Shown here: piece after piece, positions 30,448-34,781 of the stretch | Layout of the letters: every line of letters begins with the position of its first letter | Position numbering within the stretch: the stretch's first letter is position 1 | Virus record (IMG/VR): IMGVR_UViG_3300037358_000003 | Span: 1-64,000 of that record | Origin: a virus | Reading direction: 5' to 3' (one strand) | DNA: 64,000 bases | Notes under the pieces: model-generated | What the model was told of the DNA's origin: nothing | Seen by the model: only the letters and a program-made list of their open reading frames with translations | Databases searched by the model: none | Position numbers and translations under genes: made by a program

Positions 30448-30587
30448 GCAAGCGCAGTCTCGGCCCCGCAGCATCCATCAAAGCTGGCAAAGAGATCCAG
30501 CGCAAGCAACGTATCCGCCATCGTGAGAAGGTGGCGGCGAAGGCCGAACGTGAAGCAACCGAACAAAAGGAGCAAGATGCCGTTTAG
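30444..30587 (+). CDS. 47-residue basic helical protein
   Basis: Encodes MSKRSLGPAASIKAGKEIQR and a Lys/Arg/Glu-rich helix (REKVAAKAEREATEQKEQ). It overlaps both neighbours (4 nt and 11 nt) and its 3' end supplies the Shine-Dalgarno of the GroES gene. Confidence 0.55.
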   Translation: MSKRSLGPAASIKAGKEIQRKQRIRHREKVAAKAEREATEQKEQDAV

Positions 30588-30897
30588 TTTGCACAGTGAT
30601 CGAGTCGCTGTAATCGCTGACCCGTTGGAGTCCAAGACCGCCAGCGGTCTGCACATTCCAGAGGGCGCTCAGGACTATCAGGAGCCACGCTACGGCACCG
30701 TTGCGGTAGTTGGCATCGGACATCGCTCGGAGCAGACTGGCGAGCTTGTGCCGATGGATTTCAAGGTCGATGATCGCGTGTTCTTTCACAAGGCTGCTGG
30801 CGAGGTGTGGAAGTTTGATGGGACTGAGTACCTTGTGCTCGGGCCACGTGAGATAATTGGCAAGGATGATGGCAAGAAGTTGAAGGCGGTCAAGTAG
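30577..30897 (+). CDS. groES: GroES-like co-chaperonin
   Basis: The 106-residue protein has the co-chaperonin layout: LHSDRVAVIADPLESKTASG (the roof and mobile-loop region with LHIPEGAQDYQEP), GTVAVVGIG, and the C-terminal DRVFFHKAAGEVWKFDGTEY followed by LVLGPREIIG. Like T4 gp31, phage GroES homologues pair with host GroEL to fold capsid proteins; that is family knowledge. AAGGAG lies 4 nt before the ATG at 30577. No GroEL gene is present. Confidence 0.85.
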   Translation: MPFSLHSDRVAVIADPLESKTASGLHIPEGAQDYQEPRYGTVAVVGIGHRSEQTGELVPMDFKVDDRVFFHKAAGEVWKFDGTEYLVLGPREIIGKDDGKKLKAVK

Positions 30898-31085: not shown

Positions 31086-31101
31086 GAAAGTATGAGATTT
31101 C
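31086..31101 (+). repeat. Left part of a start-associated element split by the IS
   Basis: GAAAGTATGAGATTTC joins 33206-33209 (AGAC) when the insertion and one target copy are removed, restoring a full 20-nt element (copy 4). The restored mini-ORF starts at the GTG at 31080 (MAESMRFQT) and its stop overlaps the GTG at 33210. Confidence 0.75.
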
Positions 31102-31126
31102 GGGGATTATCCCTTCATGGTAGGTA
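31094..31126 (+). repeat. Left target duplication and inverted repeat of the IS
   Basis: GAGATTTC (31094-31101) is the 8-bp target duplication. The 25-bp left inverted repeat begins GGGGATTATCCCTT at 31102. Confidence 0.9.
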
Positions 31127-31130
31127 CTAG

Positions 31131-32177
31131 GTGAGTTACCCTAGTAGTGCCTGCGACCGTCCAGAATGGGCGCGACGGACCATGAACAGGGGACTTATGC
31201 CGCTCGACTACGGGATGCTGCTCACGGCGGTCCATCTTTCCAACGGGCGTAAGGCCCTTGGAACTGGGTTTTTCGTCACGGTTGAGAGCGAGGTGCCTGA
31301 GGGTGATCCCCACGGATATCTGGTGACCGCTTATCACGTCATTCACAAGGTGCCGAAGGTCTACGCCCAGGTGCCCAACGCCTTTGGCAATGGGGAGATT
31401 TACCCGCCGCGGCTCGTAGACAACTGGAAACGACCGCTAGGCGGGGTTGACATTGCCGTGGCGTCGTTTGAGGGTCCAGAGGATCACAACTACGTGGGTA
31501 TCCCGTTCGATCACATCATGCCCACGGCTGACGGGCTGATTTACCCCTACCTGGGTGCCCATATCTACTACCTCGGCCTCTTTGCACCAGCCCAGCGCAT
31601 GATGGCTAGGTCTGGCACTATCGGCGCTCTTGAGCAAACGGGATTGTCTGAGTCAATGGGCGACGCAAAGAAGGGTCTCAAGTACGGGGACTACCCCGTC
31701 CACCTAGTCGATTGTCGGTCTTATGGTGGCTTTAGTGGGTCGCCCTGCTTCGTAGAGTCGGGTCGTCCCGGTCTGCTGGTCGAGCCTCCACCTACCAACG
31801 CTCCCAAAGGCATTCAGTATCCCCCAATGGGGGTCATGCACTATTTCGCAACCCTCTGCGGAATGTTCGTTGCTCACTATGACGATGTTGGGAACAAGGT
31901 AACCAACCCCGCCGACGTGGTGAGCAAATACGGCGTTGGCATCATGTTGCGGGGTCAAGAGATCAAGGAGGCATTGATGGTTAAGGATTTCCAAACCGAA
32001 AGGCGCATCAAAGACGCCAAGGCTCGGGTCGAAGTCGAGCGGAATACAGTAAAGCCCAAGTTGGCAAGTGCGAATGATGGCGACGAGCTGACGGTCGGTG
32101 CGTTTGATGACGCCCTGCATCGCTCCACTCGCATCACAGCGCCGGACGAATCTGCTCCAGAAGGCTCAGGAACATAG
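31131..32177 (+). CDS. Trypsin-like serine peptidase, IS passenger
   Basis: The 348-residue frame has a chymotrypsin-fold triad in order: His in YLVTAYHVIHKVP, Asp in GGVDIAVASFEG, and Ser in YGGFSGSPCFVES. The oxyanion loop GFSGSP is typical of trypsin-2/DUF-type stand-alone peptidases. A charged helical tail follows (RRIKDAKARVEVERN). No signal peptide is seen, so it should act in the cytoplasm. GTG at 31131 is the first start; ATG at 31182 is an alternative. Passenger genes are known in some IS1595 groups; a protease passenger could be a defence or counter-defence gene, which is inference. Confidence 0.8.
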   Translation: MSYPSSACDRPEWARRTMNRGLMPLDYGMLLTAVHLSNGRKALGTGFFVTVESEVPEGDPHGYLVTAYHVIHKVPKVYAQVPNAFGNGEIYPPRLVDNWKRPLGGVDIAVASFEGPEDHNYVGIPFDHIMPTADGLIYPYLGAHIYYLGLFAPAQRMMARSGTIGALEQTGLSESMGDAKKGLKYGDYPVHLVDCRSYGGFSGSPCFVESGRPGLLVEPPPTNAPKGIQYPPMGVMHYFATLCGMFVAHYDDVGNKVTNPADVVSKYGVGIMLRGQEIKEALMVKDFQTERRIKDAKARVEVERNTVKPKLASANDGDELTVGAFDDALHRSTRITAPDESAPEGSGT

Positions 32178-33150
32178 GGTGAGCCTCCCCACGTCGGTTG
32201 TAACGCCAGGTGTATTCGTTGACGTACCCCTGGAGCCACTTGGTGCTGACGTGGTGGTGGGTGCCCACGATGCCAGTTTTCATGTTCGCCCAAAAGCCTT
32301 CGATCTGCTGGGTGTGGATCGCTCCATCCACGTAGATGCCCTTGGAGTGGTTGATCGTGTGGTGAGTGAACCCGTCGCTCTCCAGGCGGTCGTAAATCCG
32401 AGCGTCGTCGGTGTAGATCATGGTCCCATCTTCGACCTGATCGGCAATGTGCTCCATGATCGCGGCTTGGGGGTTCTTGGGGACCACGTAAGCGGCAACT
32501 TTGCCGTAGCGGGTGATCTCAGGCTTGGTCTTACCGTCCCGCAGGATGTGGTTGTTCCGCTCCACCATGCCAAACACGGGCACTTTCTTGTCATGCGACC
32601 ACTTGATCGCTGCCGACTGGCGACCGGCAGGAGACTTGCGAAACTCAGCCTTGTCGGAGTTCCGGGGCTTGCCGCCGATGTATGTCTCGTCCATCTCGAC
32701 CCGGCGCCCAAGCGACGTGTCATCCGGCCCCATGAGTTCGTTTCGGATCTTGGTGAACATCCTCCAGGCGGTTTTGTACGTCACCCCAAGGTCACGCTCC
32801 AGCTGCTTGGCCGAGATGCCGCACTTGGTCTGCGCCATCAGGAAAATGGCGTGAAACCAAAGCTGGAGCGACGTAGACGACTTGTGCATGATCGTCCCTG
32901 CCGTGGGGTGGATGTGATGCCCGCAGGAGTCACAGGAGTACGAGGGACGACTGGCGACCCGGTGGAACTTGCGAATCTCTCCACACTTGGGACAGTGCGC
33001 CCGCTCGGGGGTGTCCAGGGCGTAATGACGGCGCCACAGGTACTCAAGGCAGGCCGCATCGTCGGGAAAATCCCGCATGAAGTCCATAATCGTGTAGGTA
33101 GAGGTGCTCCCACCTGCTCTTTTGGAGTTATTCCGGTTACCTGGTGCCAT
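32134..33150 (-). CDS. IS1595/ISXO2-like transposase
   Basis: The 338-residue protein has an N-terminal zinc ribbon (AHCPKCGEIRKFHRVA, then YSCDSCGHHIHPTAGT), a helical region (ISAKQLERDLGVTYKTAWRM) and the ISXO2-like catalytic core: first Asp in RRVEMDETYIGGKPR, second in TMIYTDDARIYD, and the third acid/Asn region in HTQQIEGFWANMKTG. All motifs are present, so it is probably active. It starts 23 bp inside the right inverted repeat. Confidence 0.92.
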   Translation of the reverse strand: MAPGNRNNSKRAGGSTSTYTIMDFMRDFPDDAACLEYLWRRHYALDTPERAHCPKCGEIRKFHRVASRPSYSCDSCGHHIHPTAGTIMHKSSTSLQLWFHAIFLMAQTKCGISAKQLERDLGVTYKTAWRMFTKIRNELMGPDDTSLGRRVEMDETYIGGKPRNSDKAEFRKSPAGRQSAAIKWSHDKKVPVFGMVERNNHILRDGKTKPEITRYGKVAAYVVPKNPQAAIMEHIADQVEDGTMIYTDDARIYDRLESDGFTHHTINHSKGIYVDGAIHTQQIEGFWANMKTGIVGTHHHVSTKWLQGYVNEYTWRYNRRGEAHPMFLSLLEQIRPAL

Positions 33151-33172
33151 GGGATAAGAATACCATGAAATC

Positions 33173-33205
33173 TACCTACCGTCAAGGGATAATCCCCGAG
33201 ATTTC
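33173..33205 (-). repeat. Right inverted repeat and target duplication of the IS
   Basis: The 25-bp right inverted repeat ends with AAGGGATAATCCCC at 33197; GAGATTTC (33198-33205) repeats the left target sequence exactly. Confidence 0.9.
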
Positions 33206-34223: not shown

Positions 34224-34781
34224 ATGTTTGATGGACTCACGCCGCCCTACTCAACCATCGTGGCCGATCCTCCGTGGCAATACGGGTCGTGGGGGAAGCC
34301 GAGCAATCGACGGTTAGCGAAGTCGGCGGACACGATTTATCCACTCCCGTATCCGTCTATGACACTAGACGAGATCAAGTCACTTCCAGTGCAATCGCTA
34401 GCAGGTGATGACTGCGAGCTGTATTTGTGGACCACGCAGAAGTATCTATCGAACGCCTTTGACGTTCTTGGCGCATGGGGGTTTCGGTACTGTCAAATCC
34501 TGACGTGGTGTAAGCAACCAAGGGGTCTTGGGCAAGGTGGCGTTTACTGTCCCACCACCGAGTTCGTTTTATTGGGCAGACGGGGATGGATGCCCAAGGT
34601 GCGTCGTCAAGATTCGACGTGGTATCTCTGGAAACGACCAAATAACGCACACTCAAAAAAGCCACCAGAGTTCTTTGATCTCATTGAACAGACAACGACA
34701 GGACCGCGAGTTGAACTATTTGCCAGAGAACGCAGGGAAGGGTGGGACGCCTGGGGCGATGAGATAGAGTGTGTGGCATGA
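34224..34781 (+). CDS. MT-A70-type DNA N6-adenine methyltransferase
   Basis: The 185-residue protein has the catalytic STIVADPPWQYGS motif, LYLWTTQKYLSNAFDVLGAW, the Trp-rich block ILTWCKQPRGLGQGG, and a C-terminal RVELFARERREGWDAWGDE, as in MT-A70 family enzymes. These transfer a methyl group from AdoMet to adenine N6. It is the first of five methyltransferases within about 8.4 kb. Likely role is protection from host restriction or an epigenetic mark. Confidence 0.9.
   Translation: MFDGLTPPYSTIVADPPWQYGSWGKPSNRRLAKSADTIYPLPYPSMTLDEIKSLPVQSLAGDDCELYLWTTQKYLSNAFDVLGAWGFRYCQILTWCKQPRGLGQGGVYCPTTEFVLLGRRGWMPKVRRQDSTWYLWKRPNNAHSKKPPEFFDLIEQTTTGPRVELFARERREGWDAWGDEIECVA

Follow-up and report, generated by a model that had tools for sequence, protein, structure and literature searches.

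A trypsin-like protease carried by an IS1595-family element in a virus record, and a short opposite-strand peptide shared by the related transposons

On balance, the element described here is probably one of a clade of IS1595-family transposons whose terminal inverted repeats enclose a transposase gene, a cargo gene that can be exchanged and, on the strand opposite the transposase, the coding sequence of a peptide acting as a docking or adaptor helix. It was found in the window, a stretch of 64 kb from a virus record of 101,772 bases. The preliminary description of this DNA proposed an IS1595-type element with intact ends, a target duplication and a complete transposase, inserted in a phage. 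All of this was borne out, the record having genes for a terminase, a portal protein and a replicative helicase.

The element occupies 31102-33197 (2,096 bp) and is present once in the virus record. Two exact copies of GGGGATTATCCCTT, and no more, are present in the window, one at 31102-31115 (+) and the other at 33184-33197 (-). Compared inward, the terminal repeats are identical at 23 of 25 positions (20 of 22 in a shorter comparison), and GAGATTTC is found at both flanks as a perfect 8-bp target duplication. The features of the element are as follows.

31094..31101, no strand: left copy of the 8-bp target duplication, GAGATTTC
31102..31126, + strand: left terminal inverted repeat
31131..32177, + strand: passenger coding sequence, trypsin-like serine protease (Trypsin_2 match, structure model, triad)
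31335..31337, + strand: codon for the catalytic His (VTAYH), conserved in all 17 aligned relatives
31449..31451, + strand: codon for the catalytic Asp (VDIAV), conserved in all 17 aligned relatives
31740..31742, + strand: codon for the catalytic Ser (GFSGSP), conserved in all 17 aligned relatives
32082..32141, + strand: putative degenerate C-terminal tail, DELTVGAFDDALHRSTRITA, a predicted helix after a flexible linker (assigned by position; it fails the leave-one-out profile)
32134..32177, no strand: convergent overlap of 44 bp between the 3' ends of passenger and transposase, as first described
32134..33150, - strand: intact IS1595-family transposase of 338 aa (NCBIfam and Pfam matches)
33157..33185, - strand: promoter-like site into the transposase, TTGACG, 17 nt, TATTCT (9 of 12 matches)
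33173..33197, - strand: right terminal inverted repeat
33198..33205, no strand: right copy of the 8-bp target duplication

The transposase scores 201.3 bits against the NCBIfam IS1595 model NF033547 (cut-off 75) and matches Pfam DDE_Tnp_IS1595 (PF12762) with an E-value of 9.7e-40; the N-terminal zinc-ribbon PF12760 gives a weak match (E 4.5e-4; 20.6 bits, short of the curated 25.4). By its DDE transposase, inverted repeats and 8-bp duplication the element is a member of the IS1595 family, which was reportedly defined by Siguier et al. in 2009. The -35 box of the promoter-like site sits in the right inverted repeat; about one site of this quality is expected by chance. When the flanks are joined to give the empty site, the insertion falls between small phage genes, with no clearly disrupted gene. 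The only convincing ORF to span the empty site would have its start codon within the upstream gene. Counting upstream from the element, the second phage gene (window 30523-30897, +) encodes a GroES-like co-chaperonin, and a DNA methyltransferase gene (phrog_359, E 1.5e-48) is found downstream at window 34224-34781 (+).

The passenger had been described as a trypsin-like protease with His-Asp-Ser motifs, and its match to Pfam Trypsin_2 (E 8.7e-9, 36.7 bits, cut-off 27.6) agrees with this, as does the conservation of the triad in all 17 aligned protease relatives. An ORF for the 348-residue protein first reported does run from the first GTG at 31131. The ATG at 31182, giving 331 aa, is at least as likely a start because roughly the first 40 residues of the longer protein correspond to nothing in the relatives. 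The structure model has a mean pLDDT of 73.7, with much of the core above 80, and over residues 1-273 it resembles HtrA-type protease domains (Foldseek E-values to 7e-9). The closest solved structures are those of the HtrA/Deg proteases AlgW, DegP, DegS and MamO (VIA-align Z 20-22 over about 190 residues, top 21.9), with which the passenger shares the trypsin-type fold and the His-Asp-Ser triad. In contrast to these proteases, with which its identity is 14-20%, the passenger has no Pfam match to a PDZ domain; instead, past the core the model shows a long helix, then a linker of low confidence and finally a short helix at 305-315, the tail helix. It is therefore not called an HtrA protein, and is best described from the model as a probable trypsin-like protease with an HtrA-type core.

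A sequence search of the PDB with the passenger gave a chance match only. Searches with the protease alone detected no close relatives among phages or in viral and genome contigs; in plasmids there was one weak match (26.9%, E 0.04). This weak relative, L234:5046-5813 (+), is on an Agrobacterium plasmid, where it adjoins a TIR-domain gene. A search with a two-sequence protease alignment added one further viral locus, L103. In L014, L074, L075, L079, L084 and L088 the protease ORF can start at a TTG within the right-end inverted repeat (MTVG); with this start the repeat of these Acidobacteria-type elements would encode the first residues of the protein.

The relatives of the transposase comprise 22 viral loci and at least 79 loci from sequenced genomes, or at least 102 with the window. 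The ends of 63 elements were mapped, 61 by script and L011 and L012 by a relaxed search; L011 and L015 are from the same contig, and the set excludes L005 and L031, whose ends were implausible, as well as all loci where ends were not found. The 8-bp duplication is perfect in 56 of the 61 script-mapped elements and matches at 7 of 8 positions in the other 5, and in L011 and L012 it is not conserved. The 63 elements are 1,659-4,093 bp long with a median of 2,284 bp. With a transposase of about 1 kb, space for cargo is therefore usual.

Among the loci listed, 16 besides the window have a protease relative next to a transposase of this clade, and the element ends are mapped in 13 of these; the repeated association within inverted repeats that the preliminary description named as a check does occur. 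IS1595 elements with related proteases are present in Acidobacteria, Deltaproteobacteria, Chloroflexi and Patescibacteria. The protease label, mapped on a tree of 135 transposases, requires 5 changes and the fused state, in which the peptide discussed below forms the end of the cargo protein, requires 6; L204 was scored as separate on this tree only because its locus is cut, and it is the same element as L112, which is fused. The window transposase scores 441 bits against the A1 profile, which includes it, and is nested among L024, L025 and L026. These three are its nearest relatives among the matches listed (70%, 61% and 59% identity); on the tree it shares a starred group with L024 and L026 and adjoins L025. 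All three have a separate tail gene and the other large cargo family rather than a protease, and cargo has therefore been exchanged in this lineage. The long-term association of both genes suggested earlier is thus not supported for this lineage. The preliminary description had also set two observations against a stable unit. One of them was made, related IS copies without the protease being the majority; the other, protease homologues never near this transposase, was not, as they often adjoin it. The association of protease and transposase is real but not fixed.

A variety of cargo is carried by the clade: trypsin-like proteases, N6- and C5-methyltransferases, and proteins with RelA/SpoT, PIN, DUF3800, DUF4145 and DUF6941 domains. 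The commonest other cargo, at 37 of the 101 loci listed, is a protein some 250 aa long in which LRSALDH and N.DKHR motifs are conserved, for example L029:5616-6359 (+). It had no Pfam match in the two members scanned, and its structure model had no PDB match at E 0.001; the R....H spacing is presumably reminiscent of HEPN ribonucleases. Many elements (L029:5460-6359, L037, L025, L027, L030, L050, L063, L065, L080, L087 and others) have a cargo gene on the strand opposite the small tail gene and divergent from it, with the two starts separated by only 16 to 21 bp. This spacing is reminiscent of symmetrical bidirectional promoters with leaderless messages, for which the figure is 18 bp. RelA/SpoT-domain cargo is found in L036:2844-4112 (-) and L043:3418-4533 (-), the latter matching the PADLOC candidate PDC-S33 with an E-value of 1e-105, and the cargo L071:5426-6337 (-) matches the candidate PDC-S42 along almost its full length (E 2.3e-81).

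Common to these elements is a short basic peptide of about 55 aa, encoded on the opposite strand beyond the 3' end of the transposase gene, with the consensus EIPVPTR.EF...L.KVAKP. The first sign of it was the likeness between the C-terminal ends of two methyltransferases, a small ORF and a protease. It exists either as a gene of its own or as the C-terminal tail of cargo, namely of trypsin-like proteases and of two N6-methyltransferases. In L098 and L171 the protease is unfused and the tail is a separate ORF directly behind it. Such natural alternation of fused and separate forms is a classical hint of a functional link between proteins. The small tail protein belongs to no Pfam or NCBIfam family, as judged from 10 members scanned.

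A tail profile of 25 residues, built from 50 seeds, finds the motif on the opposite strand downstream of the transposase 3' end in 39 of 52 non-seed discovery loci, a count that includes an internal and doubtful match in L062. Matches of at least 12 bits number 86, of which 84 have this arrangement and two (L031, L046) lie upstream on the same strand. Among 23,638 shuffled control segments, 3 reach 8 bits and none 12, compared with 95 and 86 real segments. In leave-one-out trials 49 of the 50 seeds were recovered as the best match of their locus, the single failure being the window. The tail lies inside the repeats and opposite the transposase in 58 of the 63 elements with mapped ends; the profile recognises none in the other 5.

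The pattern holds in loci taken from the best matches of five group searches with the transposase, which gave 54 clade loci, or 37 once 17 discovery repeats were removed. The tail was detected at 8 bits or more in 27 of these 37 elements, and in 27 of the 35 whose 3' flank is 300 bp or longer, the remaining 2 having less. The misses with adequate flank are L168, L211, L219, L220, L221, L223, L225 and L227; six of the ten misses in all (L219, L220, L221, L223, L225 and L227) come from the Patescibacteria search. In more distant IS1595 groups the motif was found at none of 44 loci, 39 of which have at least 1 kb of 3' flank, and the comparison of 27/35 with 0/39 gives a Fisher p of 2e-13. The held-out tests, both this one and that of protease mobility below, are not fully independent of each other because L203, L204 and L205 are the same elements as L116, L112 and L113.

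The codon-position mean entropies of the tail are 1.35, 1.12 and 1.80 bits (85 sequences, from loci with 38-71% G+C). Together with its recurrence across phyla, this points to selection on the tail at the protein level. We rejected the view that the tail is no more than antisense sequence from the transposase end, since the motif falls largely outside the transposase gene and its third codon positions are variable.

Might the peptide instead be an intrinsic regulator of transposition, such as a small inhibitor or an accessory protein that binds DNA or RNA, with fusion to cargo an incidental read-through that keeps the regulator expressed? The stand-alone forms are strongly basic (median pI 10.3 for 68 proteins, 61 with net positive charge and 7 below pI 7), their genes converge on that of the transposase, whose 3' end they often overlap, and the tail occurs with many unrelated cargos, as such a regulator might. 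The fusions, however, persist through an entire clade of Acidobacteria with a variable linker and a conserved tail, which suggests that fusion itself is useful, and we regard the regulator as rather unlikely. Among fused proteases, tail similarity correlates about equally well with that of the transposase (r 0.53) and with that of the protease core (r 0.48; partial values 0.47 and 0.41), so that a specific match of tail to transposase is only weakly suggested.

The tail also follows the mobility of the protease. A protease profile was searched against 10 genomes already known to have loci, 299 genomes of one class and 198 of another, and it matched in 24 of the 299 and 1 of the 198. Of the 32 protease-homologue loci, 8 have the transposase and all 8 have a tail, which in L109 is a separate ORF behind the protease; in L104 the tail is present and the transposase lies beyond the flank. 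With no transposase in view (23 loci), the tail profile detects nothing in 22 and a weak remnant of 8.2 bits in L110. For non-discovery loci only, the tail is found in 3/3 with the transposase versus 0/21 without (p 5e-4), several of the 21 being distant homologues or near contig ends. Of these 21, eight score above 150 bits (L114, L115, L117-L121 and L134), and the tail is missing from each.

The window protease itself ends less clearly. Its tail, DELTVGAFDDALHRSTRITA, scores -3.9 bits in the leave-one-out tail profile. A protease profile built without the window aligns into this tail and stops no more than two positions short of its end (E 2.8e-27). In a matrix of 15 fused tails the segment scores above all 4,614 control segments (1.7, the mean of the fused tails being 51.5). 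We read it, from its position only, as a probably decayed or diverged tail. Such degeneracy would also be expected if the protease were a stray capture and the tail a neutral C-terminal extension drawn from IS DNA, and the modest representation of the protease family in the larger class searched fits a passive passenger of this kind. That reading is quite improbable: the codon-position entropy and the recurrence across phyla indicate selection on the tail, the catalytic triad is invariant, and the protease label changes five times on the tree.

The arrangement we favour would have three modules inside the repeats, a transposase, a short basic peptide and a swappable cargo gene. In the window copy the peptide module would be fused, in degenerate form, to the C-terminus of the protease behind a flexible linker. 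The peptide would be a docking or adaptor helix with basic flanks that couples the cargo to a partner common to the elements of the clade, in cis where it is fused and in trans where it is separate. The element's own complex of transposase and DNA is a first guess for this partner, a host factor being less likely. A protease docked in this way may act locally on the transposase, or on host or competitor proteins, to the benefit of the element. A broader version is tentative and somewhat doubtful: a single short peptide might serve as a universal tag that couples proteases, DNA methyltransferases and candidate toxins to the transposon machinery, with the effectors being swapped while the docking point stays.

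A defence role for the protease is possible, to judge from profile matches. The window protease matches the PADLOC candidate PDC-S45 at the family level (E 2.4e-7), with the difference that the best stretch covers residues 36-79 only; for the L084 protease the E-value is 6e-15. The element could accordingly be imagined as a mobile defence cassette, with the protease an anti-phage or superinfection-exclusion effector riding on the IS and the tail its sensor or trigger. Of 150 cargo ORFs, 14 match PDC-S45 (best E 1.2e-19), two match PDC-S33, one PDC-S42, one PD-T7-4 (L034, 4e-8) and two type I methyltransferase; PIN and RelA/SpoT domains recur in cargo, and the weak plasmid relative of the protease has a TIR gene as its neighbour. 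Defence genes were not generally enriched in cargo, however, when the 150 longest of 164 cargo ORFs were compared with flanking ORFs reduced likewise to match in number and length: each set hit 114 PADLOC families. The PDC models are also guilt-by-embedding candidates, mostly unvalidated according to excerpts of PMC12988326, and insertion of an IS into a defence operon could itself produce such embedding. We consider the cassette unlikely. The matches to S33, S42 and S45 suggest that some embedding-based defence candidates have transposon cargo among their relatives.

Cargo in the IS1595 family is not new in itself. The cargo of MTnSag1, for example, is lincomycin resistance. Excerpts of PMC5704250 describe both tISCpe8 and MTnSag1 as IS1595 elements with passenger genes, and a reference title there gives lincomycin resistance for tISCpe8 as well. 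Like the window element, both have an IS1595-type DDE transposase, 25-bp inverted repeats, a target duplication and a passenger inside the repeats (PMC5704250, in part). No opposite-strand peptide or common tail was found in the IS1595 literature searched, which included parts of PMC12988326, PMC11514479, PMC5704250 and PMC7371123 and did not extend to Siguier et al. 2009. The present clade differs from tISCpe8 and MTnSag1 in its exchangeable enzymes and its common opposite-strand peptide module.

With the tail peptide as a query, elements of this kind and their cargo can be located simply from sequence. Where transposon cargo is related to PDC-S33, S42 and S45, the inference of defence functions from genes embedded in defence operons could be biased. 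Passenger genes of IS elements are usually regarded as chance hitch-hikers. A peptide that stays with its transposase across several phyla, alone or fused to unrelated enzymes, suggests that in this clade cargo is integrated at the level of protein.
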